Of a DNA stretch of 64,000 nucleotides, positions 10,483-41,742 are shown in pieces. Positions within the stretch are counted from its first letter, which is position 1. The number at the start of each line of letters is the position of its first letter. The stretch is from Polytrichum commune. Taxonomy: Eukaryota > Streptophyta > Polytrichopsida > Polytrichales > Polytrichaceae. The notes under the pieces were generated by a model. That model did not search any database. It was not told the DNA's origin and saw only the letters and a list, made by a program, of their open reading frames with translations. Position numbers and translations under genes: made by a program. The stretch covers positions 56,663,169 through 56,727,168 of the forward strand of contig OX485806.1 of NCBI GenBank assembly GCA_950295325.1, written 5' to 3'.

Positions 10483-10723
10483 CGCACGTCACCTAGTCAA
10501 CTATTCACGTCACCCGTTCACCCGTTCAACGCTGCGGATATCGTGGATGTGAGTTGCCGTGACCCCGCCAAGTGACATGAAACTGGTGTGGAAGAGAGCT
10601 CATTTGATGAGCCCGCCTTCCTGCCGGCCGTTGCAAGAGTGCCGTTGCGGCACTTTTTCTGTCGCCGGGCCCGCCCACACCCTCGCCGGGAGGCTTCCCC
10701 GTGCGTGGCTGCGGATGCTCTAA

Positions 10724-19960: not shown

Positions 19961-19993
19961 GATGACACAGCTATGTCAGCGTAGAGGAGAGCG
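19961..19993 (+). repeat. MULE left terminal inverted repeat
   Basis: Begins GATGACACAGCTATG, with GTCAGCGTAGAGGAGAGCG following. The inverse partner is at 41,707-41,739. Just inside, the motif GAGCGAAGAGCGGAGAGCGG is itself a short repeat. Confidence 0.65.
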
Positions 19994-21255
19994 AAGAGCG
20001 AAGAGCGGAGAGCGGAGAGGAAGAAAAAATAGCAAACTTGTCAGACTAAATATAGAAATTTTAAAAATAGCAACGAATATACTTGGAATATTCTAGAATA
20101 TCCCAAAAATAGCAAAATGTAAGACCTATTTATGTGGAATGGATAGTTCCAAAAATAAATGAAAATGATCTGAATTTGAAATGGACTTGTTAAATTTAGA
20201 AGACGGGAGGTGCAAAAATGATATAAAAATTATGATAAAATAGATAAGTATATGATTTAAACCAATGGTGATTCCAAAAAAGAATAATTGAAAATGATTT
20301 TATCGAGTTTGGTATAATTGAAGAATGAGTCAATGAAAATACAAATGGCGACCAACTTGCTTCGTTTTTATTCCATCACTTTTATGTTTGTCCTATAAGT
20401 GAGTCAATTGTAGAGCTTGGACTCCCACAATTATTGTTTGTGGTGGAAGAGATTATCTACAAATGAATATATATAAGGACATAAGTTAGACTCGTATCCA
20501 ATACGGATGTAGAATGTTTAGGGATACAATGGGAGAGGAGAGAGACATGTTCGCTGGCCTAGGATGGGAGAAGGAGATTAGGAGTCTAGGAGATCCCCAT
20601 GTTCCTTTTAATCCATCGCCGGAACATGACAAAGGTGCTGGAAAGCAATGTAGTGATGACTACGAACTCACTCCATTTTCGCAGTCCACATAAGCCTGGA
20701 GGTGGAGGATGCAGGAGGAGCAGAAACAATATGCAAAGAAAAATAAAACGCGAGCGGATGTGTAGGAGAAAGACGCTGATGTGAATGAAGACGCTGATTT
20801 GAATGAAGAAAAGAAGACCAATAGGGAGGATGAGGTGAAGGTAGTAGGCGAATCTTTAAGGTCTTTGTCGTTTCGCAAGAGGATGAGAGGATTGTCGCCG
20901 CATCGTCGTCCACTAAAGGATCGAATGAGGGATAAAACGGTGTCATACATTAATTTGCTTCGACCGGGTCCACCTCCATCAAGAAGGGACGATGAACCAT
21001 CTAGAAGGTTGGCGAAACAGAAGTAGATTTGATAGACATAGGTAGCACTTTCAAATTGAACATGAAATGTTCAACCGGAAGATAGAGACATGGCACATTT
21101 AAATATTGTAATACAAAATTTTGAAGAGAATAAAAATAATCCATGAGATTATATTTATTATAGCAATCAATTATGAGTTCACATTCGGTCCAGAACTGAC
21201 CACATCCATTAGGACAAAATGTAGTGCTAGGATGAGAGTAATTCTAGGAAGTAGA
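19994..21255. other. MULE subterminal region, no recognised gene
   Basis: A purine-rich left segment, then AT-rich DNA. A plus-strand ORF at 20,781-21,026 is charged (Glu/Asp/Arg/Lys) and matches no known family. Confidence 0.45.
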
Positions 21256-24200
21256 CTATGTCAAGAGGCCCCCTTTGATGATGAGTTTGACCTCATTGAA
21301 GCTAAAGGTAGGGGCGTGAATGAACAAGTCAACTTCGGGGTCTACATTAGAGACCTTGACAAATATGAAGTAGAGGTGCTTACAATGCAGGAACGAATTT
21401 CGTTTACGGCCAAACTTTGATATCATATCCTTGAAGGCCGGGCAATTACACTCCGGCAGGGAACTGATTGTGAGTTGGTAAATTGATTGAATAGGTGCGG
21501 GTTTGGACTGCAACATGATAACGCAACCAAATCCAAGGCGTGGAATCATGGTCACCTTCAAAATGGTCCCATCCATAGCTCGTGTAGATGCGACCATCTG
21601 CATTTGTTTTGTTGATGGTGCGGTTGCAAACCGTCTTGTAGTTTTGGACTGTCTGGAAGAAGGATACGAGTCTGGGTTGGCAGGAACGTCCACTTCAGAG
21701 AGGTCGAGTGGAGGAGCCGATGTGTTGAAGAGGCAAGTGGGCGTGATGCGCTCTTTTTGAGGGAGCTGAAAGTCGGCGTTCTCAAGCTTAAGGATCTCTG
21801 GACAAGTGAGGTTGGTACCAATTTTGACATGCCACACGGGCGGGATTGGAGGTCGTTCTTGGTCTGCAGAGAATTTGTCGACTCACTTGCGACGGGATCC
21901 TTTGACACAACGTTCAATGTCGTCTGGGCAAAAAAAAACTTCTCGACCTCAGGTGTTGTGAATTTGTAATAGTTCCAAACTCCAATGTATGCCGGTGCAG
22001 GGGTGCTCTTGGAGTTGGAGACGATTTTGGCAGTGCATTTCTTCTTTGTGACAGCATGCATGGCCCAACATGCTTTGGAGGAATTGTAAGGAACTCGAGC
22101 AATATGCCAGAGCTTCTCGTCCACATTGGATTCTTGTACGGCAGTGACACGACGGAAATCCAATCCAGTAGGAGGGGGTAGTGGAACTGTAGTAAGTTTT
22201 CTGCTAGGGCTTAAAAACAACAAACCCAGGGAACAAGGTCTCCAAGAAGACTGAGCTAGTGTCTATAAGGGTTAATGTCACATTGGATTAAGGTTCACAA
22301 TAACATTATAGGGTAATTCTCATTCTTGACTCTCTTCCATCTTAAATTATCCCATCCTTTCTCTTCTTTATTAGTTCATATGTGATGGTTCGGTAGCGAA
22401 TGTTGTCTGTCCTATCTTTCAGGTAGGTACTATCACTCTAAGGTTCGACCTATTTCCGTCGTGAATTTGGACTATAGTCTCATAAATTTCGTAACCTCGG
22501 ACAATTGTCTTTGAGTATCCGGTCCATAGTCATCCAATGGATTTTCATCCTATTGGGGTTAGTATCATTTGATTTCCCTAAAACAACATCACAAGATCTT
22601 CAATTCAAACTCAAATTATCTCATTCAATACAATGGATTAGTTGATTATTTTATTCGCATTAATCTTTATTTGATAACTTATCTCAATCATGAACCATCA
22701 TCCATGCCATTTCGGTCTACAATCTCTGCACATTCCAAGATAGAATAACAACACGGGACTATATTCCATATTAATTCTTAAGCCTTAGGTGTCTGAGTGT
22801 TATTCCAGCCAATCAATTATGTAATTTCAATCGTTTCTACTTCAATTCATTATCTCGACATTGCAATGTAATCTCGCACGCTCGGCAATGATGCCCAGTG
22901 CATCTCTCAGCCTGCATTTCCATTTCATCAGGGACTAGCCTATCTGTATTCCCATCATTAAACAACACTCCTCTAATCCCTAACAACTCCCATCATCATC
23001 TCTCTCTCTTCCCTTACATGCTGCTCATTCTCCCCTGCGACTGTAGTCTTTCTCGGCTCCTTGTAGTAACGCTACGCCTCAACCCTCTGACCTATCTCTC
23101 TGGTCTCTCTCTTATCTTTGCCTATGATCGGATGTTCTTATCCTTACCGGCTCTCTGTAACTCCAATTAGGTAATTCCTCCCACATTACACTCCAATATT
23201 ATCTCTCTGATAAAGCTCCGATAGACCATAGTCCGTTTATCGCTGCCTCGTTTTGCTTCTCTCTCTATTACAATTTGCTCAATATTGAGGTTCACGGCTT
23301 GACTGACGCTCAAGGATATGTCGTACATAAGCCTCTGTAATTTCACTCTTCGGATGCCTCTCAACAAATTGATCTGCCCGGACCTTCAGGCAACTTCTTC
23401 GGTCTCTTTCTCAATTTTCTCTCATACAGTTTATCTCAAGGCTTTCTTCATTTTTTATTATTACATTTCCAATCTCTCCAGTCGGTATCTCTATTTTTTG
23501 ATGCACATTCACTCACTCTCTTCGCCACATTATTTCTTCCTTCGAAATGCTTTCGATCTTATCGGTTCTGTTAGGCGGTTTGTTTCACAGACAATCACAT
23601 TCTTACATTCTCTATCTCATTGCAACCTAAACTTCTCACTTACATTCTTACTCACTCCAATCACTCCTTGCACATCCTGACATTGCTTTCATACACTTGC
23701 ATACTCCGCAAAAACACTTAATTACTTTCAAATTGATTACAATATCAAAACTTCACTCTATCACAGAGTTGAAGTTAAGTTTTTCACTCGGCATTTGGCC
23801 GACCCTACTCATTCTTCGCTTATCAGCGACTACTCTAGACTATAGCCTGAATACACTTTTTGATTATGGCCTGTCTTCTCTCTTGGCCGATAGTCTCTTA
23901 TCGTCTCCCTCTCTCAGGCGGTTACAACTATTTCCTGAGGTCCTTTGGTTTCTAAAACCACTGTAAAAATCCTTTCATCTGACTATAGTCCGATTTTTCC
24001 ATCCCTTTGTCCAAAAACTTGGCTAAAAAATGCCTCTATTTAGACTATAGCCCAAAAATCTGCTCTACAGGAACCTCGAGCACTGTCGGGGAGGACTCCT
24101 CGATGATGGTAGGCAAAGGTGAAGCGTGAGATCTTGTGGTTCTTTGAGCGACACGAGGGCAAGAGAAGTTGAGGGTGTCAGGGCGGTGGGTTTCATCGTC

Positions 24201-26735
24201 AGCTCTAATGGATGTGTCAGGCTTGCGTTTCTCGGAGCCAAAGACCTCGGCACCCTCAAGGTGGGGACTACAAGTACAAAATTCTTCTCCGCCAGGCATG
24301 TCGAGAAGAACCTTCTGCAGGACAGCGTGGTCACCAGTACGTTGAGCTAGGGCTTTTTTGCTAGGGCCATCGCCCCCAACGCCACCCTTAAGAAACTGAT
24401 GGTACGCCACAACTTGGAGGAAGGCTCGAATATAGTCATCCACAGTGGCCACGTATAGATCGCCACCTTTGTTGCCGGACGTTTGGAACCATTTGTTGTG
24501 AATGGACTCGGGAATGTTGCAATTGGGCATTTGTGCAAATTCCTCGGCGGTCATGATTTTCTCCTGCGAAATAAAAAGGGTGTGCAAGAAATAAGAAAAG
24601 TTTGGAAAAGAAGATAAAACAGAAAACAAAGAGCAATAACACTAAAGACGCACCAATTCCATGAAGCCACCCCATTGTCGATAACGAAAGTGCCAGAAGA
24701 CTAGCCAAAGCTGAAGGTGTTTCAGCCCCTCCTCGGAGGTGCAGTTAGACGAAGCCCACCAGGCCTTGATGGCGAGGTACCTCGTTTCCGCCTCGAGCAT
24801 AGAGGATGTGTCGCGATACTGCAGGCAGAGACACTTGTGTTGGTCTTGCAAGTCATGCTTGATATATAGCTTGGTGTGTTTCTCCAAAGACTGGGCCAAT
24901 GGAAGTAGCACGTTCTCTCACGCCCATCGATGGGAACCTTTGGGTCTCCGGACCCGTAAACAATCCTAACGGCATTCCAATTGGCTTGGGCACTGTCTGC
25001 CATGAAGCCTTTGAAGTGGGGCTTGGGGATTCCATGGCGGGCCATGATGTGGTTGAGGTTATGCCAGAAAAGAACTTCGGATTGGAAGTCGCAGCAAGCG
25101 ATGGTCATGACGTGCTGGTAGGTTCCGTCGTATACGTGGCAGGCCATGGTGGTCCACTTGGCGACGCGTTTGACATGGTCGGACATGATCCAAGCATGCT
25201 CGAGATCTCCGCCAGGTTGCATGTGCTTAACCAAGTCGACCCCACTACCAGGGCGGACTTCGGACATTTTGAAAACGAAAACCTTGTCCGTAGCGTCACC
25301 TTGGCCTGGGAATTGATTCCGCTGGACATAGGCCCAAGTGCTGACACCTCGAAGCTTGGCGATGCCATCCATAACCCCCAATCTACGTAAGTATTTGAAA
25401 GTGGTAACCTTGTTTTGGAGGTGGGGGGAATGCAACTCCTTGCAACGATAAAAAAATGGGCTCAAGTTCTTCCAAGGAAAAGAGTTGATGAGGATCAGTA
25501 TCATTGCAGAGGGGGAACTCATCCACAAGGTCCTTGTTGGCTTCAAGGACGATTTTGCTATGGGTGGCTTGGGGCGTTCGCTCGACGTGCTCCTCGATGA
25601 GGGCGTCGATGCGCTGTTGGCTATTTCTGCAATTGCCAACCTTGACGGGATGATGATGGTTGCCCAGATGAATATAGGCACGCTGAGTGGTGGTATTGCC
25701 ATGACATGGTGCAATGCATTTGGGAGGCTCCTTACATATCCGGCACATTAGAGTGGATCCCAAAGGGAAGGGTCCACCAACGGGGAAGAACTCCTTGGTG
25801 AAACCGTCGAAATCAGTATCATTGACCGGGGAAGTCCGATGAGCACGTTGTAGGTAATTGCACTGAGGATTTTGGCATTGGAGGTGGCCAACACAACTGG
25901 AGGAGCAAAAAGCAAGGCCCATGTCATTGGTGATATTGGTGGTCTGGGTCTTAGTCCAAACATGGCCGTCATAGCGTTTGTCAATGGATTGGGCCTTCTT
26001 ATGAAAGGAAGGGACACCGAGTGGGGGTAGGACAAGCATAAGATCACCATCAAAGCGAGGTGGCAGGAAATTCACCTCTTCAATTTGTAAGGTGTCATAA
26101 TCCTACTTCTTGAGGATGTTCTTCCTACCGGGCATGGAAGCAAGAGAACGTAGACATTGAAGAATTGAAAAGGTGGATTTAGGAGGGGAGGGGGGAAGAG
26201 GACACTGGGGATCGAGGCTTACAAAAGGGGGGGTCACAGAGGGGGGACAGAGAGAGGAGGAAGATGGCTCGACCATAGGGGTGGAATGAGTGGGATCATC
26301 ACCATCGGATGAATCAGAAAATTGTATGACAGTGTGAATACCAGGTTCAATTTTGACACGAACGTCGGGAGGGGTGTTGAAAGTGGAAGCGGACGAATAA
26401 GGAGGGGTGCGGATTTCTATGGAGACGTGTGGCCGAGATTCAGGGAGACCGTAGACTCTGTATTTACCAACGGCGAGGTCCCACACAGATGGACCGTTGT
26501 CGGCAAGAATGGGATTCTCACGCATGGTAGAGGACAACAAAGAGGTAAGGGGATCATAAATCTCGCGTTCAACCCAAATAGAGGCATCATGTAATGAGAA
26601 CCTGATACAAAGGTGAAGGGAAGAGACACGTGCAAATCCGTTAGCATCTATGGGGAAAAGGATGGAAACTCCGAAGCCATTTGCATGGATCTCCGCCATG
26701 TCTGACACAGATGGCACGGAAGATGAGGAAGCCAT
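21256..26735 (-). pseudogene. MULE transposase with GCM-like zinc finger, DDE core and SWIM finger
   Basis: Read leftward from the ATG at 26,735. An acidic Ser/Pro-rich N-terminal part runs to a single in-frame stop at 26,103-26,105 and continues in the same frame at 26,075. Next is a Cys/His region (CQNPQCNYL, then CRICKEPPKCIAPCH, then HLGNHHHPVKVG), a GCM/FLYWCH-like finger. After a frameshift at the A7 run near 25,449 comes the MULE core: Asp in HVYDGTYQHVMTIACCD and Asp in FKGFMADSAQANWNAVR. A second frameshift lies near 24,894. After the insert at 22.2-24.06 kb the C-terminus carries CNCPAFKDM, then HCKHLYFI, a CxCx(n)CxH SWIM finger. The gene is non-functional as it stands. Confidence 0.85.
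22207..24056. mobile_element. Pyrimidine-rich insert splitting the MULE transposase
   Basis: Coding similarity stops near 24,056 and resumes near 22,206. The bases TCTGCT occur at both junctions (22,201-22,206 and 24,057-24,062), suggesting a target duplication. The insert has no gene. It carries scattered GACTATAGTC, a perfect 10-bp palindrome, and variants (GACTATAGCC, GACTGTAGTC, GACCATAGTCC). Its texture matches 1-870. An intron is the alternative, but a size of 1.85 kb with such a repeat structure favours an inserted element. Confidence 0.5.
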
Positions 26736-26935
26736 GTGTATATATAAGGAATAGAGGAAGGATGCCAAAAAGGGAAACCGGGCCTCGGCTGGAAAAAAAG
26801 GGAAAACCCTAAACATCGATCGGCATTATAAAGACAAGTATAGGGAAGGGAAGGGTCAGTATGTGCGCAAAGAAGTGAGATGCCCTAAGAGTATAGCATA
26901 GGAGAGAGAGAAATATTTAGAACCGGGAAGCACAC

Positions 26936-27310
26936 ATGAAGGAAACAGGCAACAGTGTAGTCTCCACAACGGATCTTGGAAGAAAAAGGAAGAAAAGAAA
27001 GGGAGGCACGAGTTTCAGCACTTCAAAACAGAGGCGACGGAGAGAACTTAGGAAGAAAGAGCAAACGTGTATAGAGGGAAGTGAGACACCAACAAACTTG
27101 AGCCAGACGAGCGGAGAGGTTGAGACAAGGGCATCAAGTAGGAACGAGGAACTGCAACGGATAGAGGAAGAAGGGGAGCAGAGTGGATCAGGCGAACCAT
27201 CAATGGGAGATAGCGAGCATCGAAGCAATTCCAATAAGAGCGAAACAGAGGAGGAGATAAAAGGGGACTCAATTAGCACAATAAGTTTGGGTTTAGGGTT
27301 TAGGGTTTAA
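26936..27310 (+). CDS. Small basic/acidic ORF divergent from the MULE transposase
   Basis: A 124-residue frame with a true ATG, 200 bp from the divergent transposase start. The N-terminal third holds a nuclear-localisation-like run (GRKRKKRKGG, KQRRRRELRKK). The rest is Ser/Glu-rich. No family is recognised. The last codons (LGLGFRV) are encoded by the telomere-like tract, which makes a natural gene end less likely. It may be a chance frame, or the first exon of the rightward gene at 34.0-36.4 kb. Confidence 0.3.
   Translation: MKETGNSVVSTTDLGRKRKKRKGGTSFSTSKQRRRRELRKKEQTCIEGSETPTNLSQTSGEVETRASSRNEELQRIEEEGEQSGSGEPSMGDSEHRSNSNKSETEEEIKGDSISTISLGLGFRV
27286..27309. repeat. Interstitial telomere-like tract (TTTAGGG type)
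   Basis: Three consecutive units close to GGGTTTA. This is the Arabidopsis-type plant telomere unit, here far from any visible chromosome end. Short tracts like this are also common in plant promoters (telo-box). Confidence 0.7.
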
Positions 27311-28084
27311 AAGGCAAAAATACATTTAGGTTTTTGCAAAAATGGCATTACAAATTAAGCTCTCTAAATATGGATGACAAGTTCGGACTCCATATGGCGG
27401 TTGGATTAGTTTTGAAGTCGGTAGTGTTAAGGGTGACTGAACAATATGGTGAATGATATGTAGATTTAAATTGCAAAACTCAGAACAATACATTTGCTGA
27501 GATTGTGTGCGAGAAATCTTGAAATGGAAATTGAAGTTCGAAAGTTACAGTTGAATTTTAGATTTGTTCAATTTTCTTGAAATGATAACGACGATGTGTG
27601 GAAGTGATTACGAAATGAAATTACTGGTGTAAAGGGAGTATATTTCTGGACCATCTCGGAACCCAAAGATCGAAGAACGGTTATATTTTAGGTGAAGATT
27701 GTAAAGGCAAGCATGCTTGATAAGGAATAAAAATATTGGTATATCACTTTCGCTTTGAGGGCTCATTTCACAAAGTCGGACTAGAGACAAGCTCAACAGA
27801 GTCTTCGTGCCCTGCTGATTCTGCCAAGCCCGTTCCCTTGGCTATGGTTTCCCTAGATAGTAGATAGGGACAGTAGGAATCTCGTTAATCCATTCATGCG
27901 GGTCACTCCGCACCACCCTCTCGCCACCCTCTTCCAAGCCCATTGCCTTGGCAGTGGCTAGATAGTAGATAGGGACAGTGGGAATCTCATTTCTCCATTT
28001 ATGGTTGCAACTCTCGCCGCCCGTACCCTAACTAGTACGCTCAAGATCGCCCGCGCTCACCAACCAACCCGTTTCCAGATTGTT
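27311..28084. other. No recognised gene before the satellite
   Basis: Non-coding. Contains a duplicated phrase at about 27,822-27,870 and 27,938-27,990 (AAGCCCGTTCCCTTGG / AAGCCCATTGCCTTGG, then TAGATAGTAGATAGGGACAG) and a Pro/Arg-poor spacer. Confidence 0.45.
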
Positions 28085-28605
28085 AGAATGCTAGGTGTAT
28101 ACAGAATGTTGGCAAGATAGTTTGAAATGTTTGATTTTTTGATATTTCAGTCGGGGGGGGGTTTGAGTTCATTAATCCAAGCACCCTCTCGGCCCCGAGA
28201 GGGTGGCCTTATTATGTTTAGGTGTATACAGAATGTTGATAAGATAGTCTGAAATGTTTGATTTTTGGATTTTTCAGTCGGGGGGGTTTAAGTTCATCAA
28301 TCCAAGCACCCTCTCGGCTCCGAAAGGGTGGCCTAAGTTTGTTTAGGTGTATACAGAATTTTAGTAAGATAGTCTGAAATGTTTGATTTTTCGATATTTC
28401 AGTCGGGGGGGGTTTAAGTTCATCAATCCAAACACCTTCTCTGAGTCGAAAGGGTGGCCTAAGTATGTTTAGGTGTATACAAATTTTTTGTAAGATAGTA
28501 TGAAATGTTTTATTTTTTTATTTTTCAGTCGGGGGGGCAATTAAGGTCATTAATCCAAGCACCCTCTCGGCCCCGAGAGGGTGGCCTTATTATGTTTAGG
28601 TGTAT

Positions 28606-29598
28606 TGTCACCAAAAATTTCCCACCCTTCGATTTCTTCCTAGCCCGAGTCGAAAAGTTATAATGACACGTAGAAAATCCTCCCTTGGTAATTCAATGTA
28701 TGATTCCAATATACCCTTGGAATATACACAACTTGACTAATCCACACTATGTCATCTTATATTCCTTAACTTCGGGTAAGGTCACATCCTTAGTCTTCTC
28801 CAATGTCCACCCAGCCGCCTTGGCTACGCCTGCCTTCAATGATTTCCCTCGTGTGAATCGAGTCTTCGCCGTTGATTCCATACTATTGCACGAACCTTCG
28901 CTTGTTGATTCCATGAAGCACATAAGTTTAAGTATTAACAAATACTTGTGTAACTTATGGTGGCCTCTCCTTCACAGGCCTTCACATTCCATTACTAAGT
29001 TCAACCTCAATGGTCAATCACCAATACATTCAAAAGTTACACACACCCCTTCCTACCTAATGAATCCAACACTTTAAGTCTAAACATCATAAGTCAAAAA
29101 CTATAAGAGTGTGTCACTATTTTTTTGGAAGTTTCGACATAGTTTCGGTTTTTTGGCTCTCGAAAATTCATATGAAGTCCAAAAAATGAGTTCTTGGTAT
29201 CCATGGATAGGTAATGAAGTCCTCTACATGAATATGCAATAATATTTCTACTGCCATAAAGTATATGGTCGCAATTCTACGCTGTTCCCTTTGAATCTGC
29301 ACTTTTTCACTAGTTTTTGGAAGTTTGGACATAGGTTCGGTTTTTTGGCTCTCAAAAATTCATATGAAGTCCAAAAAATGAGTTCTTGGTATCCATGGAT
29401 AGGTAATGAAGTCTTCTACATGAATGTGCAATAATATATCTACTGCCAAAAAGTATATGGTCGCAATTCTACGTTGTTCCCTTTGAATCTACATTTTTTC
29501 ACTAGTTTTTAGAAGTTTGGACATAGTCTCGGTTTTTTGGCTCTCAAAAATATATATGAAGTCCAACAAAACTAAATGCTCCAATAAGAGCCTTTGCA
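28606..29598 (+). mobile_element. LTR-like insertion inside the satellite
   Basis: Starts TGTCACCAAAAATTTCC, then CACCCTTCGATTTC, and ends CCTTTGCA (TG...CA). The 5-bp direct repeat TGTAT lies on both sides (28,601-28,605 and 29,599-29,603). The satellite monomer continues normally across the repaired site. The start is a diverged form of the family hairpin (GACTCGGGCTAG on the opposite strand). 993 bp, non-coding. It occurs in only one of the three higher-order units, so it arrived after their amplification. Confidence 0.85.
29127..29575. repeat. 192-bp tandem duplication inside the LTR-like insertion
   Basis: GGAAGTTT(C/G)GACATAG, then GGTTTTTTGGCTCTC, recurs at 29,127, 29,319 and 29,511, giving two full units and a partial third that are nearly identical. 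Confidence 0.85.
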
Positions 29599-32500
29599 TG
29601 TATACAAAATGTTATTAAGATAGTCTGAAATGTTTGATTTTTTGATATTTCAGTCGGGGGGGATTAAGTTCATCAATCCAAGCACCCTCTCGAAGCCGAG
29701 AGGGTGGCCTAAGTATGTTTAGGTGTATACAAAATTTTGGTAAGATAGTCTGAAATGTTTGATTTTTCGATATTTCAGTCAGGGGGGATTTAAGTTCATC
29801 AATCCAAATACCTTCTCTGAGCCCAGAGGGTGGCCTAAGTATGTTTAGGTGTACACAGAATGTTGGTAAGATAGTCTGAAATGCTTGACTTGTGGATTTT
29901 TCAGTCGGGGGGGGGGGGTTAAGGTCATTAATCGAAGCACCCTCTCGGGGCCGAGAGGGTGGCCTTCATATGTTTAGGTGTATACAGAATGTTGGCAAGA
30001 TAGTTTGAAATGTTTGATTTTTTGATATTTCAGTCGGGGGGGGTTTGAGTTCATTAATCCAAGCACCCTCTCGGCCCCGAGAGGGTGGCCTTATTATGTT
30101 TAGGTATATACAGAATGTTGATAAGATAGTCTGAAATGTTTGATTTTTGGATTTTTCAGTCGGGGGGGTTTAAGTTCATCAATCCAAACACCTTCTCTGA
30201 GTCGAGAGGGTGGCCTAAGTATGTTTAGGTGTATACAGTATTTTTGTAAGATAGTCTGAAATGTTTTATTTTTTTATTTTTTAGTCGGGGGGGGGGGTTT
30301 AAGGTCATTAATCCAAGCACCCTCTCAGAGCCGAGAGGGTGGTCTAAGTATGTTTAGGTGTATACAGAATGTTGGTAAGATAGTTAGAAATGTTTTATTT
30401 TTCGATTTTTCAGTCGGGGGGGTTTAAGGTCATTAATCCAAACACCCTCTCGGCCTCGAGAGAGTGGCCTTATTATGTTTAGGTGTATACAATATGTTGT
30501 TAAGATATTATGAAATGTTTGATTTTTCGATATTTCAGTAGGGGGGGGATTAAGTTCATCAATCCAAGCACCCTCTCGGACCCGAGAGGGTGGCCTAAGT
30601 ATTTTTATGTGTATACATAATTTTGGTAAGATAGTATGAAATGTTTGATTTTTCGATATTTCAGTCGGGGGGGGGTTTAAATTCATCAATCCAAGCATCC
30701 TCTCGGAGCCGAGAGGGTGGCCTAAGTACGTTTTGGTGTATACAAAATGTTGGCAACAGAGTCTGAAATGTTTTATTTTTTGATATTTCAGTGGGGGGGG
30801 GGTTTAAGTTCATCAATCGAAGCACCCTCTCGGGGCCGAGAGGGTGGCCTTCATATGTTTAGGTGTATACAGAATGTTGGCAAAAGAGGTTAAAATGTTT
30901 GATTTTTTGATATTTCTGTCCGGGGGGTGTTTGAATTCATTAATCCAAGCACCCTCTCGGCCTCGAGAGGGTGGCCTTATTATGTTTAGGTGTATACAGA
31001 ATGTTGGTAAGATAGTCTGAAATGTTTGATTTTTCGATATTTTAGTCGGGGGGGTTTAAGTTCATCAATCCAAACACCTTCTCTGAGTCGAGAGGGTGGC
31101 CTAAGTATGTTTAGGTGTATACAGAATTTTTGTAAGATAGTCTGAAATGTTTTATTTTTTTATTTTTTAGTCGGGGGGGGGGGTTTAAGGTCATTAATCC
31201 AAGCACCCTCTCAGAGCCGAGAGGGTGGTCTAAGTATGTTTAGGTGTACACAGAATGTTGGTAAGATAGTTAGAAATGTTTTATTTTTCGATTTTTCAGT
31301 CGGGGGGGTTTAAGGTCATTAATCCAAACACCGTCTCGGCCTCGAGAGAGTGGCCTTATTATGTTTAGGTGTATACAATATGTTGTTAAGATATTATGAA
31401 ATGTTTGATTTTTCGATATTTCAGTAGGGGGGGGATTAAGTTCATCAATCCAAGCACCCTCTCGGACCCGAGAGGGTGGCCTAAGTATTTTTAGGTGTAT
31501 ACATAATTTTGGTAAGATAGTATGAAATGTTTGATTTTTCGATATTTCAGTCGGGGGGGGGTTTAAATTCATCAATCCAAGCATCCTCTCGGAGCCGAGA
31601 GGGTGGCCTAAGTACGTTTTGGTGTATACAAAATGTTGGCAACAGAGTCTGAAATGTTTTATTTTTTGATATTTCAGTCGGGGGGGGGGTTAAGTTCATC
31701 AATGCAACCACCCTCTCGGAGTCGAGAGGGTGGCCTAAGTATGTTTACGTGTATACAAAATTTTGGTAAGATAGTCTGAAATGTGTTATGTTTCGATTTT
31801 TCAGTCGGGGGGGGGGGGTTTAACGTCATTAATCCAAGCACCCTCTCGGCCCCAAGAAGGTGGCCTTATTATGTTTAGGTGTAAACAAAATGTTGGTAAG
31901 ATAGTCTCAATTGTTTTATTCTTCGATTTTTTAGTCTAGGAGGGGGTTTAAGGTCATTAATCCAAGCACCCTCTCGGCCCTGAGAGGGTGGCCTTATTAT
32001 GTTAAGGTTTATCCAAAATGTTGTTAAGATAGTATGAAATGTTTGATTTTTGGATTTTTTAGTCGGGGGGGGGGGTTTAAGTTCATCAATCCAAGCACCC
32101 TCTCAGAGCCGAGAGGGTGGCCTTCATATGTTTAGGTGTATACAAAATTTTGGCAAGATAGTCTGTAATGTTTTATTTTTTGATATTTCAGTTAGGGGGG
32201 ATTTAAGTTCATCAATCCAAGCACCCTGTCGGAGCCGAGAGGGTGGCCTTCATATGTTTAGGTGTATACAGAATGTTGGTAAGTTAGTCTGAAATGCTTG
32301 ATTTTTGGATTTTTCAGTTGGGGGGGCGGTTTAAGTTCATCAATCCTAGCACCCTCTCGGAGCCGAGAGGGTGGCCTAAGTATGTTTAGGTGTATACATA
32401 ATATTGGTAAGATACTCTGAAATGTTTTATTTTTCGATATTTCAAATGGGGAGGGGTTTAAGTTCATCAATCCAAGCACCCTCTCAGCCTTGAGAGGGTG

Positions 32501-33999
32501 GCCTTATTATGTTTAGGTGTATACTGAATGTTGTTAAGATAGTCTGAAATGTTTGATTTTTTGATATTTCAGTCGGGGGGGGGGGGTTTAAGGTCATGAA
32601 TCCAAGCACCCTCTCGGTTCCGAGAGGGTGGCCTTATTATGTTTAGGTGTATCCAAAATGTTGTTAAGATAGTCTGAAATGTTTTTTTTTCGATATTTCA
32701 GTCGGGGGGGAGTTTGAGTTCATCAATCCAAGCACCCTCTCAGAGCCGATAGGTTGGCCTGAGTATGTTTAGGTGTATACCGAATGTTGGGAAGATAGTC
32801 TGAAATATTTGATTCTTAGATTTTTAAGTCGGGGGCGGGGGTTTAAGGTCATTAATCCAATCACCCTCTCGGAGCCGAGAGGGTGGCATAAGTATGTTTA
32901 GGTGTATACGGAATGTTGGTAAGATAGTCTGAAATGTTTGGTTTTTGGATTTTTCAGTAAGGGGGGGGGGTTTAAGGTCATTAATCCAAGCACCCTCTCG
33001 GCCCCGAGAGGGTGGCCTTATTATGTTTAGGTGTATCAAGAATATTGTTAAGATAGTCTGCAATGTTTGATTTTTGGATTTTTTAGTCGGGGGGGGGGGT
33101 TTAAGTTCATCAATCCAAGCACCCTCTCGGAGCCGAGAGGGCGGCCTTCATATGTTTAGGTGTATACAAAATTTTGGCAAAATAGTCTGAAATGTTTTAT
33201 TTTTCAATATTTCAGTTAGGGGGGATTTAAGTTCATCAATCCAAGCACCCTCTCGGAGCCGAGAGGGTGGCCTTCATATGTTTAGGTGTATATAGAATGT
33301 TGGTAAGATAGTATGAAATGTTTGATTTTTGGATTTTTCTGTCTCGGGGGGGGGGGTGGGAGTTCATTAATCCAAACACCCTCTCGGCTCCGAGAGGGTG
33401 GCCTTAGTATGTATGGTTTATCCAAAATGTGGTAAGATAGTTGAAATGTTTGATTTTTGGATTTTTCATTCGGGGGGGGGGGGGACTTCATTAATCCAAA
33501 CACCCTATCGGCTCCGAGAGGGTGGCCTTATTATGTTTATGTGTATCCAGAATGTGGTATGATAGTCTCAAATGATTGATTTTTGGATTTTTCAGTCGGG
33601 GTGGGGGGTGGGAGTTCATTAATCCGAGCACCCTCTCGGCTCCGAGAGGGTGGCCTTAGTATGTTTAGGTGTATCCAGAATGTGGTAAGATAGTCTCAAA
33701 TCTTTGATTTATCCATTTTTCAGTCGGGGGGGACTTCATTAATCCAAACACCCTCTCGGCTCCGAGAGGGTGGCTTTATTATGTTCAGGTTTATCCAGAA
33801 TGTGGTAGGATAGTCTCAAATGTTTGATTTTTGGATTTTTCAATCGAGGGGGGGGGGTGGAAGTTCATTAGATTAAGCACCCTCTCGGCTCCGAGAGGGT
33901 GGCCTTAGTAGGTTTATGTACTCCAATCCATCATTCTTTTGTTTTTTTTTTTGCTTTTGTTTTTTGTCATTTCTAACTTTATGTTTGTCTCCTTTTAGT

Positions 34000-36370
34000 T
34001 GGAGAAGGGGGTTGAGGCTGAGATCGCCTCCTTCAAAAATGAATGCTCGATCGACGTGGACTGGGCTTCTGCGGAGGACGTCATGTAGCCTGCTCATTAC
34101 GTCGAGCATTGGAGGCTGGTTTTGTGGGACAAGGCTTTTCGTGTCTATTTTGACGAAAATGGAGAGTTCAAGTTTACCAAAGGTCTTAACCTCATGGAAT
34201 TTCAAGAAGGCCCCATAGCTATCAAATGCGTCGTTTATCGGTAATGTTTTATTTTTTCTTTTTAATCTTCATATACTCATTTGGTTTCCCCTTTTCCCAT
34301 TCCATTACCGTTTTCTCATGTTCTTCAATTTGCAGGTACATTCGTGAGTTTGTCTTCAAAAATGCTTTTCCTCGTTCGTCTTTGCCTTCATTCCTTGAAG
34401 ATTGGCTCCATACGAGGTACAGTTATTGTGTGTACACTCTCATGCAGATTACCAAATTCCCACGCGCACACTTGGTCGCAGGTGGCTAGTACTTGGACTG
34501 TTCTCGTGGATTCGTACGCGAATCTGAGGAACCACTTTACATCAGCCTCATTTCTTCTGCCCCGGAGGTAATTGAACTGGAGGAGGAGCCGGAAGAAAAC
34601 GAGATCCCGCCTCCTCCCACCATTGTGAAAGAGATTGGGTCCGCAAAGGGTAAGGGTAGGAAGCTTGTCCCCCATGCATCTTCTCAAGTTTCTACTCGTT
34701 CTTACACCAACCACCACTCCTTCTGCCCCTGGCCCCGATCCGGTACCAGCTCCTTCCCATAGCGGCGCAACCATCCCATCGATGCCTCGCAAGAGGAAGG
34801 CTGTTGCACCGGATACATCGGCAACTTCCTTGGATAGGTCATCTAGCCTTTCATTGATTAAGAATGTGGACATGGAAGAGCTCATTGAGGATCTCATGAA
34901 GACGAAGATTCAACCTCCCGCCTACCGCCGCATCCAAGAATTGACAACCAAGGTTTATATGCCGATCTCTAGTTTTATCCTTTGATTCCTTAGAGTTCAA
35001 CATTCGTTTTTTTGTTATTAATTTTGTTTGTCTATTTGCTTCTCAGGTTGGAGTAGGACGTACTCGTCCAAACACGAAGCCTAAGATTCACACGGGCATT
35101 GACCTACTCTTTGCAGATTGTACCCGAGAACTTATGTGTGCCTAGCATCTCGGCCTTTTCCTCGGATGTTCCTCAGTAGAACAAGCGGTCTTCCACTTAC
35201 TTTGAGGTTTTGTTTGCTTTTGCAAGTGCCAACCTGCATGACAACGGCGTCCTCGTCTTCGTACATGCCGCTGATCCGGAGGTCTCTAGATCAATTCACG
35301 ATTGGGCACACACTGAGGAATTCTACGTTGCCGAAGATTGGTTTGGCATGAATGACCTTGATCTCCAATCGCCCACTAATCCTTCTGACTTGGTAAGTCG
35401 TTTACGGCTTCATCCATTTTTATTCTTGCCTTATTTTTTTCATTTATGTATTCTTAATTCTACCGTTCATTTTTTTGTTCAGACTCGCAAGTTCTTCATC
35501 AAGGTGCTTGTTCGTAATGATTCTATCTTGAGTTTCCGTACCTCGGAGTTCCAAGACATTGGTTACAATATTAAGAGAGATGGTTGGCTCAACAGCTTCG
35601 TTGATGCAAAGAACTAGTCGATGAGGGAAGACGGGATGCCCTGGAGAAGTGCTCGTGAGAAACGCTCCGAGTTCTTTTCCATCCATTTCTCTGCTCTCAC
35701 GGACAATGACGACATTATAATGGATTGGCAATGTGGCGTTGGTATGTTCTTAATCTCCTTGTTTCTCATTTTTTTTTTTTTTTTTCCTAGTTCTTTCGTT
35801 TCTTTTTGTTTTATTTTACGTTCATTCCCGTATACTCACCTTTGCGCATTTGGTTGTACTAGGAGGCTTCGTCATAGCATGCCGCTCCATTCAACGACAT
35901 ATTATAGCTTTGGAGTCGGACATCGACATCTACAAGTCCGTCCTCCTCCCCATGCGTGAGGCCAACCAATAACATACCTCTCAGCATGTGGCCCCTCAAC
36001 GACGCTCGGTTTTTGCTCCTCTTCCTTGGAAGATGGCGAAGCGCAATTTTGATTTGCTGTGTGCGTAAGTTCGTTATTGGCTTCGAACTTGCTTTCTTTC
36101 ATTTCTATCTTCTCGGTTCGAAGTTGTTGGCATGGGCTAATGTAATTTTATTCTCGTCCTGTATGTTCAGAGTTCAAAATGAGAGCCCGATTCGCGTCCT
36201 TACCGCGGACATGTTTTCAACGCCTTCGACGACGTTCGAGCTCCCTTCCTATGCAGCTGGGCTTGCCAATCTTTTGGCGGAAGCACCGTCCCCACCTCCT
36301 TTTCGCACCCGCCCTTTCAACAAATTATTTTTGGATTTCCTAGACATAGAGGCCGATCAGGGAAAAGATA
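34000..36370 (+). pseudogene. Multi-exon gene resembling a DNA N6-adenine/N4-cytosine methyltransferase, broken
   Basis: Exons begin after an acceptor at 33,998-33,999. Introns with GT-AG ends are visible at about 34,241-34,335, 35,393-35,482 and 35,742-35,863. N-terminal exons (WRLVLWDKAFRVYFDENGEF, then YIREFVFKNAFPRSSLPSFL) are unassigned. The later exons give HTGIDLLFADCTREL, a position like motif IV (DPPY, here DCTR); FEVLFAFASANLHDNGVLVF; WFGMNDLDLQSPTNPSDL; TRKFFIKVLVRND; and finally DWQCGVGGFVIACRSIQRH, then IIALESDIDIY, which resembles motif I (DxFxGxG...GIExxxxY). That order, IV before I, is the beta-class arrangement. Stops at about 34,085, 34,488, 35,151, 35,178, 35,618 and 35,968 and a frameshift near 35,140 show decay. 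It ends at the LTR-like element at 36,371. The function is inferred from motif layout only. Confidence 0.5.
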
Positions 36371-36937
36371 TGTGAGCCCAAAATGGTACTCATATGTGTT
36401 CTTAATTCTTCGAGACCATTAGAAGTTATGTTTTAATATTTATTGATTATTCACAAAAATATAAAAAGAGTGAAGTGTGAAGTGTGAAGTGGATTAAGTT
36501 TAGACATTAGAGGACGTTGTGTGATTGTCTCAAGGTTTAAGTTCAATGAGGTAATGCCTTAACTAGGTGAGTATGGAGTAAGGTGAGGCGAGAGGGGATC
36601 CGCGGATTAAATGCCCACATTAGGATCCACCTTGTTGGTTTAGGAATGGAAGAGCCTTGTGGATGGGATGAGTCCCTACTTAGAAGGAGAAGGTTAAGGG
36701 ATTGTGATTGGAGGCTCTAATCCTCTCACCCTATCCTTACCTCATGCCCTCTCCTCCTCTTTGCTACTTAAGACTTCCCTCTTTCATTTTTTTTTTTTTT
36801 TTTTTTTTTGGTGCTCCTTGGCACCCCACGGGTTATAAGTGTGGGTGTGTAGGAAGCAAGAGAGGAGCACGTGTGTGCGCAAGGCTTAAGTAGAGGAATC
36901 AAGACTAATTAGTCTAGAGGTTAGTTTCACTTGGTTG

Positions 36938-37010
36938 TGTGTGTGTGTGTGTAGAGGTGTGTGTAGAAGTGTGTGTAGAAGTGTGTGTAGAAGTGTGTGT
37001 CTGCGTGTGT
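36938..37010. repeat. GT-rich microsatellite
   Basis: (GT)n followed by four units of AGAAGTGTGT/AGAGGTGTGT inside the LTR-like element. Confidence 0.85.
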
Positions 37011-37127
37011 GGGAGGAGCTAAGAAGGTCACTGAAGCCCCCCCTTCTATCTATCTCTCTTCCTCTATCTTTCTCCCTGTTTTCCTTCATCTCTTCCAAAA
37101 TAAAAATAAATAAAAATATAGTAAATA

Positions 37128-37625
37128 GCTTAATATCTGCAGCAGTAGAGCTGCGTATTCACAGAGTATTTTCAGCGTAGAGTTGTGTATATGTAGCAGT
37201 AGAGCTGCGTATTGTAGCATATCTGCAATGTACCTGCAGCCGCAGAACTGCGCATTTGGATGGATTAGTATCTGCATAGTAGATAGCTTAGTATCTGCAG
37301 CAGTAGAGCTGCGTATTCACAGTGTATTTTCAGCGTAGAGTTGTGTATATGTAGCAGTAGAGTTGCGTATTGTAGCGTATCTGCAGTGTACCTGCAGCCG
37401 CAGAACTGCGCATCTGGATGGATTAGTATCTGCAGCAGTAGAGCTGCGTATTCACAGTGTATTTTCAGCGTAGAGCTGTGTATTGTAGCGTATCTGCAAT
37501 GTACCTGCAGCCGCAGAACTGCGCATCTGGATGGATTAGTATTTGCAGAGTAGAGCTACGTATTTGCAGCGTATATGTAGCGTAGAGTTGCATATTTGCA
37601 GCTTATCTGTAGCGTAGAGCTGCTG
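37128..37625. repeat. Tandem repeats of CAGTAGAGCTGCGTATT type
   Basis: CTGCAGCAGTAGAGCTGCG recurs at about 37,136, 37,296 and 37,432 (steps of 160 and 136), and smaller units (GCGTAGAG(C/T)TG, CTGCAGCCGCAGAACTGCGC) recur within. Non-coding expansion inside the LTR-like element. Confidence 0.8.
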
Positions 37626-38369
37626 TGACATTTGAGGGTGTGGGATAAACTAAGAAAGGGGGTTAGTTGATGTTTGGGATTAGTGCGGTGACTTTGAGGT
37701 CGTCACCAAGGTGGCGTTAAACGCAGAGTCGGCATCAAGTGGCGGAGTCGGCATCAAGTTACGGAGTTGGCATGGTGGTTTTGGCCTCACACGAGGTCGT
37801 AACGGAAAATAGTGTTTTTAAACACTTGTACTCTTATCGTGGACTCTTGAGAAATCTAAGGATGTACCTATGCAAGACGATCACATTAATAGAATGACAT
37901 GACTTTAAGTAAGTTGGAAACTCGTCGAGATGGAAGTCACATTCCATGTTACCACAAGTCTTGGTCCGACACATGTGATTCTCAAAACTATCACCCGGAC
38001 TAGGACGCTCAAGGGTGGTGGGTTTGGCCTCACAGGATAGTGATAGACATGGTAGTCCAAGTCTTTGACTACGCCTCGTGCGTTTGGAACCTCCTTCTCC
38101 TATGTATTTATGATGTTTGAATTTTTTTTAAGTTCATTTGTTGAATTTCCATGTGCCTTTTGCAAACCACATTCAACTTTTTTTTCATCTTATGTTGTTG
38201 TTTGTTTTCAATTGCTCTTGAAGGTTGGAGGCTTGTATTAATTTTGTACATATGTTCAACTAGTTGGTTGATAGGTTCAACTACTTTGTTGGTAACCATG
38301 AATTGTGAGAGCCCACTAGAAGGTGTCCAAAGGCCGTCCCAATACACCTCCAAAATTATGTAGTGTGGT

Positions 38370-38680
38370 CACGGATTTTTAGGTGGCTAGGACTTGATTT
38401 TGGATTAATGTGGATAGTTCATTTTATTTTCAAGTAGGCTCTCAGCTCCGACAGGGTAAGGTCTTAGGTGTCTAGGACCAGATTTTGGATTAATGGGGAT
38501 GGTTGATTTTATGGTTGGGTAGGCTCGGCTCCGATAGTGTAAGGTCTTAGTTGAAGGGGACCAGATTTTGTATTAGTGTGGATGGTTGATTTTATGTTTG
38601 GGTAGGCTCTCAACTCCCAAAGGGTAAGGTAATAGTTGTCTAGGACCACATTTTGAATTAATGTGGATGGTGTTAGTTGT
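38370..38680. repeat. Short tandem array, ~85-95-bp units
   Basis: Three to four units with GACCAGATTTTGGATTAATG, then GGATGGTTGATTTTATG, then GGCTCTCAGCTCCGA...GGGTAAGGT. The last phrase is reminiscent of the satellite hairpin (CTCTCGG...GAGGGTGGCC). Confidence 0.7.
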
Positions 38681-39129
38681 GGACTTGATTCTATCTTGCT
38701 AGTTGGGTTGCTATTTCTCTAGTTGAGGGGTTAAGGGTAGTGGGTTGGGGTTGGCACCAGATATTTCATGAGCCATTATGGTCATTATGTTATTGAATCC
38801 ATCCCCCACTCAAGTTAAGATTCACCCCTTCAATCTAGTGCAATCAGAACTACTTATATACCATTGATTTTCATATCCACGTGGATCTTTTTCACATTGG
38901 AGTTTAGTTTGAGTTATGATATTGATTCCAACCCCCACTCAAGTTAAGATTCACCCCATTAATTTGGTGGAATCCAATCAAATATCTTACCCATAATGTT
39001 TGCCTCCACGTGCACCCCATTCACATTGGTTGTCTTCCAATCCCAAATGCTATATAGCAAATGCAAGTTTTGTTTGGGCATCTCTCGGCCACATTTGAGG
39101 AAGGTTCCATTCTTGAAGGTGTGTCTCTC

Positions 39130-40670
39130 GGTCAAAATTTATGCATTCTTGAATCTATGTGTTGAGGTTAAGCTCTTAGCCAGATTTCAACATTCTAGGA
39201 TCTTGTGTTTGAAATTAAGCTCTTAGCCAGATTTATGCATTCTTGAATCTATGGGTTGAGGTTAAGCTCTTGGCCAGATTTCGGCAATCTAGGATCTTGT
39301 ATTTGAGGTTGAGGCCTTGGCCAAATTTCATATTCTTGGATCTGGTGTTTGAGGTTAAGCCTTGGCCAAATTTCATATTCTTGGATCTGGTGTTTGAGGT
39401 TAAGGCCTTGGCCAAATTTCAAATTCTAGTATGTTGTGTTTGAAATTAAGGCCTTGGCCAAATTTCAGATTCTTGGATGTTGTGTTTGAGGTTAAGGCCT
39501 TGGCCAAATTTCATATTCTTGGATCTGGTGTTTGAGGTTAAGGCCTTGGCCAAATTTTAGATTCTAGTATGTTGTCTTTGAGGTTAAGGTATTGGCCAAA
39601 TTTTAAGCATTCTTTAATCTTTGGGTTGAGGTTGATGTCGCGCACCTCTCCATGAGGAGTGGCCAAAACACCATGGGCACAAGGGGGGACCCCGGAGTGA
39701 CACCCGGGACTTGTGGCGCCGCTGGTGAGAGGGCCCCGGGCGTTGGGAACGCCTCCCACCCACGAAGATTAGGAGGCACAAGGGTAAGGCCATGAGTTAT
39801 GCGTAGCTCATGGCGTGGTGATTCTAGAAAGCTCAAGAACACCTCAATCGGAGGTGTGAGCTAGGAGTTATGGCCATTTGAGTGGGGCGCTGTCCCGGGA
39901 CAACGCCCTGGTACAGCAGTGCCTGGGAGTGATTCCCGGGACAGCCAAGGTTCAAACAGGCATAACTTCCTCAAGACTTTCTCAAATGGAGCAAGTGAGG
40001 AGTCCATTGGCATGTACGTGAAGCGTAGATGAACATGGAGTGGTTGGTTGTTATGATCAGACATCATACAAGGAAGTTATGATGGTCTGAAGCTGCTGGG
40101 GGGTTCTAGGCCCAGCAGCTAAAGGAAAATGTCCACTTGGCCCCAACTCTTGGTAGAGAGACAAGAGGTTGGTTGACGGTGGGGTAGGGGCCCCGCGTGA
40201 AGTCCTCGAGGCTTATATGGGTGAGGTGGTGTGGCCTCACCCACCCGAGGCCGAACGGCAAGGCCTCCATGGGCTTTGGCCTATTGTGAGGCCATAGTTG
40301 CCTAGTATGCTTCGGGTTGTTGTAGTGTTGCTCCGGCAACGCGATGATCAACATAGGATTGGACTTCCATGGATGGAAGTCCACATTGGGGAAATGGGTT
40401 ACCGATTAAGGGGTGAGTCCCGAAAGCAAAGTAGGAGGGTTGGTTCCCTCCTATGAGCTATATGGTCCGGGGTAGAAGGAGCTAACCATTAGCATGGCGG
40501 AATGCGAATGGTTAGCGCTCGTAACCTTTGCTAGAATTGAAAATTGGCAAGATTATCAAGGGGGCTAGCAAGGGTTGCGACAGTTAAGGCCTTGGCCAAA
40601 TTTCAGATTCTTGGATCTGGTGTTTGAGGTTAAGGTCTTGGCCAAAATTCACTTAATTTTTGAGTTCATT
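39130..40670. repeat. ~57-bp tandem array (AAGGCCTTGGCCAAATTTCA), split by an insertion
   Basis: Nine or more units with GTTTGAGGTTAAGGCCTTGG, then CCAAATTTCA, then ATTCTTGGATCTGGT, running from about 39,130 to 39,635 and resuming in the same register at 40,583-40,670. The palindrome AAGGCCTTGGCC is in most units. Frames through it are chance. Confidence 0.88.
39636..40582. mobile_element. Solo-LTR-like insertion within the 57-bp array
   Basis: Starts TGTCGCGCACCTCTCC and ends AGGGTTGCGACA, so the termini TGTCGC/GCGACA are inverted and have TG...CA form. The flanks GTTGA (39,631-39,635) and GTTAA (40,583-40,587) are a 5-bp duplication with one mismatch. 947 bp, higher GC than its surroundings, non-coding. 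It does not carry the hairpin of the other family, so it is a separate LTR family. Confidence 0.75.
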
Positions 40671-40725
40671 TGTGTTCCTCATCATTTGTTTATCAGGTTG
40701 TGGAAGATCGCTCTAATTCCACGTC

Positions 40726-41013
40726 ATGGAGCCACTCGTATTGCATCTGGACCTAGATGTACAATTGTCAGTCTTAGTTCCCAACTTATTGGTGGGTGCC
40801 GCAAATGTGAATACGGGCCGGGAGACGGTATTGGACACCCAACGTCGTTTGTCGCTAATCCACGATTTGAAGCTATGTTGCAAATCATGGAAAAATATTG
40901 TGGATAAAAGTGCCGAGTACAATGCTCGTCATTTGGCTCAATACGAATATGCCATGGGTCCCAATGTAGACTTAAGGGTGTGTTTGCCACGCGAACATAA
41001 CCTCATCACATAA
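40726..41013 (+). CDS. Hypothetical 95-residue frame near the MULE right end
   Basis: An open frame with segments that look protein-like (LCCKSWKNIVDKSAEYNARH, then AQYEYAMGPNVDL). No family is recognised with confidence. It may be a last exon of the rightward gene in the MULE or a captured host exon. Confidence 0.25.
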   Translation: MEPLVLHLDLDVQLSVLVPNLLVGAANVNTGRETVLDTQRRLSLIHDLKLCCKSWKNIVDKSAEYNARHLAQYEYAMGPNVDLRVCLPREHNLIT

Positions 41014-41706
41014 TTTCAAATGAACATGATGTGGTTCTCTCATAGCCGGCACGTCAGCTCAAAAATTTCGCGGAGGATTCTTATGTCGGACTTGGGGATT
41101 TGTCATTGTGTTCATTGGCTAATCTAGGGGATGAATTGGAGAGCTGCTGGTGTGCGGAGGAGTTCTATGGCATGATCTTTGAATGATTTTACCCATATTG
41201 GACATGCCTGGCCGATAGGGTGTAGATGGAAATAAAGTAGAGGATAGTTGTATATAGCTACTTGAACTGAATACACATTTTTGTAAGTCTTGAGTTTGGC
41301 ACCTAACTTCATGAACATTTTCTCGGCCAATCAAATATTTTGTGTATGGGAATTATTGAAATCTAATCGTACTTGGAAAGAGTACCCTACCTACTTGGGG
41401 CAATTTATCACTTTGTGGAAATCATTTATATACACTTAAGTTGTTCATCATATGTTAATGTTTGATTTCAATTGATGACGTCAGCCTTAATTTAATATGA
41501 AACATTTGAAACATGTACTATAAGATGTTTGAGAACAAATGCAATCTTCCACGCCTATAGGATCCTTTGGTTTCTCGAACAATTATGGGTTATTATGTCC
41601 ACGGGAATGGGGTGCCTTTCCAACAAATTGAATTCAAACTATCTCTAATTCCACGGAAATAGGCACTGCTTTTCCTAAAATTACCCAACAAAATCTAAAA
41701 TTTCCG

Positions 41707-41739
41707 CTCTCCGCTTTACGCTCACACTACTAAGTTTCC
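41707..41739 (-). repeat. MULE right terminal inverted repeat
   Basis: Read on the minus strand: GGAAACTTAGTAGTG, then TGAGCGTAAAGCGGAGAGCG. It is followed directly by the second copy of CCGCCATGCACG. Confidence 0.65.
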
Positions 41740-41742
41740 CCG

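Follow-up and report, generated by a model that had tools for sequence, protein, structure and literature searches.

Mutator-like elements (MULEs) are usually described as transposons of a few kb, and in the VANDAL MULEs the anti-silencing protein VANC is thought to act on motif arrays within its own family. Target site duplications (TSDs) of the Mutator superfamily are given as 7-12 bp (PMC9168764) or 8-11 bp (PMC3903597). According to a review, the Pack-MULEs described by Jiang et al. in 2004 carry gene fragments and are at most 7 kb long (PMC6431247, PMC3903597), while the barley MULE Hvu_Abermu, found with maize MURA, measures 8,176 bp and has 9-bp TSDs and terminal inverted repeats (TIRs) of 138-145 bp (PMC9168764). 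Most giant families of PMC12477816 carry nested insertions, and ParB-plus-methyltransferase accessory genes were noted there in algal transposons, with a role suggested for them. Here we analysed a window of 64,000 nucleotides of the moss Polytrichum commune (contig OX485806.1, C4:56663169-56727168 in our numbering), in which a 21.8-kb insert lies inside a gene of another transposon, the TNP2 gene of a CACTA element. This insert very probably represents a degenerate member of a large family of giant DNA transposons in the Mutator superfamily, for which a mechanism and an accessory system are proposed below. The family has GG...CCC termini, imperfect inverted repeats, 10-bp TSDs in 31 of 44 pairings of its ends, empty sites and a recurrent gene plan, which in the copies examined includes a palindrome-bearing tandem array between two genes.

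A sequence-only reading of the window had proposed that a Mutator-like element cleanly splits TNP2, with the same 12 bases at both junctions, and the split was confirmed. The 12-mer CCGCCATGCACG has exactly two copies in the window, at 19949-19960 and 41740-41751, flanking the insert, and when the flanks are joined with one copy kept, TNP2 has an open frame of 226 aa reading MARSEACMAEGYVRDEC. With the Pfam family DUF4218, the two halves score 79.8 and 16.9 bits and the joined flanks 105.6 bits. The host TNP2 matches PF02992 (3.5e-60), PF13960 and PF13952. The right terminus of the CACTA element, of CACTACAAGAAAATCGG type, lies at 58065; no left terminus of this element was found in the window. 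The CACTA-type terminal sequence CACTACAAGAAAATCGGCAAAC (reverse complement) extends up to 58065, and a near copy of it, 53 bp long, lies at ~42471-42523 (region 42425-42785), inside an apparent TNP2 intron.

An empty TNP2 site in a related CACTA copy, which the sequence-only reading had suggested as a check, was looked for and found. A near-intact relative of the insert (L155-L157, at C2:56490501-56513500), picked for its short gene spacing, measures 16,158 bp, carries the perfect 10-bp TSD AGAAACTCGG on both sides and itself lies inside TNP2 of a related CACTA copy. That TNP2 reads through the window insertion site (MARPEACMAEGYVRDECLGF), with 84.8% identity over 1,006 joined-flank columns, and the window TNP2 is unbroken at the insertion site of the relative. 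Thus, each CACTA copy is the empty site of the other.

The imperfect inverted repeats claimed for the ends were also borne out. Anchored at the boundaries first read, the window ends match in inverted orientation at 16 of 26 ungapped positions (P ~1.6e-4, 200,000 random position pairs); a free local alignment scores 41, just under the 99th percentile of 42 (2,000 random pairs), and is not convincing alone. The near-intact relative has an imperfect TIR of ~50 bp, which is degenerate in the window. The boundaries were compared across 30 left and 30 right loci, 13 left and 8 right of which were set aside because their length varies close to the end. The base before the left start first read is G in 17 of 17 listed left copies with alignment to the end, and the base after the right end is C in 22 of 22 such right copies. 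Because relatives shift each boundary one base outward, the termini are GGACGACAC... and ...AAGTTTCCC (GG...CCC) and the TSD is 10 bp (Table 1). The 12 bases do stand at both junctions as had been noticed, but the duplication itself is 10 bp, a 12-bp TSD being ruled out, and alignment of ends across copies, another of the suggested checks, confirmed the boundaries closely while moving each by one base. The left loci L024 and L037, both among the 13 with length variation, lack GGACGACAC, and one TSD-supported pairing begins TGACGACAC.

A genome search for further copies with the same ends and duplications was run over 407.8 Mb in 64 contigs. With the left 400 bases as query, 40 matches were scored among 370 candidates, and with the right 400 bases, 40 of 273 candidates were scored and gave 47 rows. 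The left terminus, as a 21-base pattern, was found at 300 places with at most 2 mismatches, versus 3 for the reversed control, and the right terminus at 162 places, versus 1. Pairing used the first 100 places listed per terminus pattern, plus 6 left and 3 right ends from the 400-base searches, and among these ends 44 pairs closer than 60 kb stand in the right order (window included), versus 2 in the wrong order. TSDs were tested on 55-bp flanks of 44 pairings (the window and one 93-kb pairing left out, one 60.6-kb pairing in, two right ends used twice), and in 31 of them at least 8 of 10 bases match with the offset exactly 10, versus 0.1% of 1,892 cross-pairings. These 31 pairings lie on six contigs and span 12,134-56,883 bp with a median of 30,910 bp. 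The size of the window element, called unusual in the sequence-only reading, is unusual for a MULE but not within its own family, where it falls below the median. One of the other 13 pairings (C4:43898385) has a 10/10 match with a one-base shift; the rest do not match, and could be mispaired ends or copies that have been damaged. A TSD of 10 bp, inside the Mutator range, is found in 31 of 44 pairings, in the window and in the near-intact relative. Family termini crowd on C4:41-59 Mb, where the window lies (40 of 103 right ends used, in ~18 Mb of a 59-Mb contig). No relatives were confirmed in viral contigs.

Two divergent genes recur in this family, a transposase directed toward the left end and a second gene directed toward the right. 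The transposase has 272 homologues and 2,114 genome candidates, with intact frames among the 87 scored; the plus-strand open reading frames (ORFs) of the second gene, at 34.3-36.4 kb, have 128 homologues and 860 candidates, and an upstream ParB-like exon, taken from the near-intact relative, has 230 homologues and 1,278 candidates. As 87 of 2,114 transposase, 150 of 860 methyltransferase-like and 150 of 1,278 ParB-like candidates were scored, counts of presence are lower bounds. At 54 of 88 transposase places (87 scored rows and that of the window, added by hand) a second-gene match lies no more than 60 kb away, with the side and strand as expected, and at 7 it lies on the wrong side; one of the 150 methyltransferase-like rows (contig C56) was left out. 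Among 33 TSD-supported intervals (the 31, the shifted one and the window), at least 16 hold a transposase, at least 25 a second-gene match and at least 13 both, and 25 of 26 second-gene matches are in element orientation. The ParB-like exon is present in at least 17 of the 33, with 16 of 17 matches in element orientation, and the 150 scored copies have the methyltransferase-like exon less than 8 kb downstream on the same strand in 80 cases, upstream in 3 and on the other strand in 0. Hence the supposed gene cargo represents a second gene that recurs in the element family in a preferred geometry, and this recurrence rules out captured host genes for the ORFs at 34-36 kb.

The second gene resembles a fusion of two known kinds of protein at the level of motifs, and its function is putative. 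Searched against the PDB, the spliced methyltransferase-like region matched seven sequences up to E 10, all methyltransferases, and the best five are all DNA amino-methyltransferases: DpnA (0.007, two chains), N4C methyltransferases (0.3, two) and CcrM (0.4), none of them below 0.001. In a spliced relative, motif IV is followed by motif I (DxxxGxG), reading FADIPEN ... DVIMDWQCGVGGSITACRS ... ALESD, collinear with DpnA 5hfj and in the beta-class order; motif I and its position appear to fit a beta-class amino-methyltransferase. In the upstream exon, KMFFVWEGNHRLTAW (motif EGNHRLTAW) and the layout resemble ParB.

Several results weigh against this assignment. The catalytic motif IV of amino-methyltransferases is of DPPY type, and most aligned relatives and the near-intact copy have DIPE or DVPE there, so methyltransferase activity is doubtful and we file the gene as methyltransferase-like only. 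The sole hidden Markov model (HMM) match of the spliced region is PF01555, at E 0.14 and 12.5 bits versus a cut-off of 26.7, and searches of Pfam, NCBIfam and PHROGs with the ORFs of the window element and the near-intact relative gave no accepted family. Profiles A2 and A3, wholly or mostly without the motif-I exon, matched no methyltransferase in the PDB, and structure prediction for the methyltransferase-like exon had low confidence and gave no match. The ParB model is not among the Pfam matches of 32 ParB-like members, one of which matches DUF6551 (E 0.048), and these members had no PDB match. It is thus possible, though we lean away from it, that the second gene encodes an unrelated accessory protein, for example a VANC-like DNA-binding anti-silencing factor, and that its likeness to ParB and methyltransferases arose by chance; the HMM scores below cut-off, the non-canonical motif IV, the failed structure prediction and the PDB profiles without methyltransferase all favour this explanation. 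However, chance would have to account for five best solved-structure matches that all fall to DNA amino-methyltransferases (E 0.007-0.4), motif I lying where it should, and for a ParB-plus-methyltransferase gene opposite the transposase, an arrangement reported for a brown-algal transposon (PMC12477816).

The DNA between the two genes provides a candidate target for such a protein. Palindromes with arms of at least 8 and loops of at most 2 number 19 in window 28092-33916 (3.3 per kb) and 31 in the array of the near-intact relative (6.8 per kb), versus 0-0.09 per kb outside the arrays, in the rest of both elements and their flanks. The main palindrome types share the core CTCGGnnCCGAG, with 19 sites in the window and 27 in the relative. 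Palindrome arms are 95.1% conserved, versus 82.2% elsewhere in the unit, over 37 ungapped unit copies of the window, and 96.4% versus 71.8% over 24 ungapped copies of the relative, and none of the other 22-column blocks of the unit equals the arms. Hardly any compensatory double changes occur, with 1 among 39 changes in the array of the window and 0 among 19 in that of the relative, which suggests that the palindrome is conserved as a DNA site and not as an RNA hairpin. The window-type palindrome has 752 exact places in the genome, versus 0 for the control, and 50 of these were listed with locations: 23 lie between both genes of the TSD-supported copy C1:24585047-24610396, 26 lie at C1:16459010-16465965, adjoining a transposase match, a ParB-like match and a left terminus, and 1 lies elsewhere. 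What the sequence-only reading called a satellite is an array of palindromes, and other copies have it too, either between the family genes or beside them.

We tentatively propose, short of an even chance, that these giant MULEs encode a ParB-like/amino-methyltransferase protein together with its target DNA, the CTCGGnnCCGAG palindrome arrays between the divergent genes, as a private parS/ParB-methylase-like system that would spread on and modify its own DNA, either to resist silencing or to license transposition. The protein, with a ParB-like part and a part like a beta-class amino-methyltransferase, might bind the palindromes of its own family, and might thereby mark or shield element DNA, for example against silencing. 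A conserved palindrome array adjoining a ParB/methyltransferase-like gene would make the suggested role directly testable, young open-frame copies being present in the genome.

Another rival explanation supposes an ordinary-sized MULE made giant by nested insertions and satellite growth, with a small original plan and junk in the rest. A TSD-supported 57-kb relative on C7 (L158, L159), of which 14 kb were sampled, has ORFs that by eye resemble reverse transcriptase and integrase, and LTR-like (long terminal repeat) segments; the window copy has one LTR-like segment (Table 1), whose copies in the relative lie near ORFs resembling gypsy integrase and reverse transcriptase (by eye), and ~6.8 kb of tandem repeats. 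Part of the size of some copies is indeed due to nested elements. However, the 16,158-bp near-intact relative, with its perfect TSD, already holds both genes and the array in the same plan as the window copy, and the gene order recurs in many copies, with arrays in at least two more. Thus we consider growth from a small plan unlikely, and the reading of the insert as a member of a giant family stands. Two of the LTR-like segments in the C7 copy are in opposite orientation, one directly beside a transposase piece.

As judged from its letters, the window copy no longer encodes working proteins, the transposase being broken and the ParB-like exon not recognisable (the first exon of relatives had no tblastn match in this copy), and open-frame copies exist elsewhere in the genome. 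Hence the window copy would have moved only before its decay, or in trans. The 192-aa ParB-like exon is 100% identical at no fewer than seven places on five contigs (that of the query included), suggesting that it was amplified recently at other places in the genome. A 50.1-kb TSD-supported copy (C1:62587596-62637730) has a ParB-like exon with 100% identity to the one in the near-intact relative, and is perhaps one giant element nested in another.

The MULE transposase announced in the sequence-only reading is real, though broken and recognised by no Pfam model in the window copy. PF10551 is not among the Pfam matches of the family, and PF00872 is matched by 2 of 43 transposase members (best E 0.034). 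Profile searches A1, A2 and A3 of the PDB matched neither a transposase nor a methyltransferase. With Foldseek, the best match of the catalytic region (about residues 479-701) is the IS256 family transposase ISCth4 (PDB 6xg8, 6xgx, 6xgw); no eukaryotic MULE chain was among the fold-search matches, an uninformative absence. C614 and H617 (CxxH) are invariant in 43 transposase sequences, a GCM/WRKY-like zinc finger and a ubiquitin/PB1-like N-terminus are both weak matches, and a SWIM-like CNC...CKH is read in the later coding part; no Pfam zinc-finger or SWIM model matched. A CxxH in the catalytic domain, a zinc-finger N-terminus and a SWIM C-terminus mark Mutator transposases, and features of this kind are present here. 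We suggest that a DDE transposase of IS256/Mutator type would cut at the inverted repeats, and that the cut element would be joined to a 10-bp staggered target.

KDZ transposases also carry zinc fingers, and KDZ elements make 8-bp TSDs. A transposase of KDZ or of a new superfamily, instead of Mutator, would agree with the lack of a Pfam MULE match and with the giant size for which KDZ elements are known (PMC12477816), and is nevertheless quite improbable: matches at an offset of 8 bp reach 0-5 of 8 bases in the 44 pairings. An assembly artefact, with a chimeric join at 19,960 or 41,740, is the least credible of all: nothing was found in its favour, 31 further pairings on six contigs have the same termini and 10-bp TSDs, and the site is uninterrupted in a related CACTA copy.

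Table 1. Coordinates in the window of the giant element, its parts and the interrupted TNP2 gene.
Feature	Position	Strand	Basis and remarks
Whole element, left to right end, 21,781 bp	19960..41740	+	End bases of relatives; 10-bp TSD at exactly this offset in 31/44 pairings
Left TSD copy, 10 bp, CGCCATGCAC	19950..19959	.	Sequence; offset fixed by relatives
Right TSD copy, 10 bp, CGCCATGCAC	41741..41750	.	Sequence; offset fixed by relatives
Left terminus/TIR, degenerate in window; relatives read GGACGACACnnCTATGTGAGCGTAGAGCGGAGAGC	19960..20020	+	Genome pattern scan
Right terminus/TIR, ...GCTCACACTACTAAGTTTCCC	41690..41740	-	Genome pattern scan
Upstream part of interrupted CACTA TNP2 (Transposase_21, DUF4218 start)	41741..44415	-	Pfam
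Downstream part of interrupted CACTA TNP2 (DUF4218 end, DUF4216)	17250..19949	-	Pfam; joined-flank frame
Broken multi-exon transposase	21247..26768	-	Exon-1 part 24567-26768; later parts 24048-24638 and 21247-22241, with SWIM-like CNC...CKH; tblastn with near-intact relative
Tandem arrays, ~126-129-bp units, many with 24-bp palindrome CACCCTCTCGGnnCCGAGAGGGTG	28092-28605 and 29599-33916	.	Between the two genes
192-bp-unit array between palindrome arrays	29114-29571		
Degenerate second gene, methyltransferase-like region	34331..36375	+	Exons 35120-35434 (motif-IV-like), 35396-35743 (ending DWQCGVG), ~35862-35969 (ACRS...ALESD)
Further tandem-repeat blocks	37118-37609, 38379-38671, 38785-39029, 39145-39633	.	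TRF
Nested ~0.95-kb LTR-like segment splitting 46-bp array	39636..40585	.	90-92% copies in 57-kb relative; array pieces on both sides; LTR nature putative

Elsewhere in the window, at 6767-8365 on the plus strand and 8806-10488 on the minus strand, a PIF/Harbinger-type transposase ORF (PF04827 9.4e-87, PF13359) adjoins a long ORF with a weak NAM-associated PF14303 match (2.8e-5, below cut-off), which possibly encodes the partner protein of this transposase. A direct repeat of ~200 bp with 97% identity (60807-61008 and 63800-64000) encloses ORFs at 61332-63539 that have no accepted Pfam match.

In the titles and abstract starts listed from the open-licence literature, we found no description of this giant MULE family, nor of a ParB/methyltransferase gene in a MULE. 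The units moved by this family, for which there are hundreds of terminus matches, measure ~12-57 kb, and such elements may go unannotated in other genomes because Pfam models miss the transposase. Hvu_Abermu is similar in that its termini read GGG...CCC, it has many copies, another of its genes is oppositely oriented, and it is larger than the MULEs compared with it (PMC9168764), whereas the moss family has 12-57 kb, 10-bp TSDs, TIRs of ~50 bp, a transposase without Pfam match, a palindrome array and a ParB/methyltransferase-like gene. ISCth4 is the best Foldseek match of the catalytic region but is a bacterial insertion sequence of the IS256 family, and the protein here adds the ubiquitin/PB1-like N-terminus and the GCM/WRKY-like zinc finger (both weak) and the SWIM-like C-terminus. 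Rice and maize Pack-MULEs and coding MULEs are likewise plant TIR DNA transposons with nested transposable elements inside and an 8-11-bp TSD criterion (PMC6431247, PMC3903597), but the extra gene here recurs across the family. The VANDAL/VANC system (PMC6446971 for VANDAL) is alike by description, with a ParB/methyltransferase-like second gene here instead. Sola1-1_Ec32 of Ectocarpus is a 21.5-kb DNA transposon in which an accessory gene opposite the transposase joins a ParB-like and an N4C/N6A methyltransferase domain (PMC12477816); it belongs to the Sola superfamily and a brown alga, in contrast to the Mutator-type transposase, 10-bp TSD and plant genome of the present family, and the palindrome array, which the excerpt of PMC12477816 does not mention for Sola1-1_Ec32, is present here.

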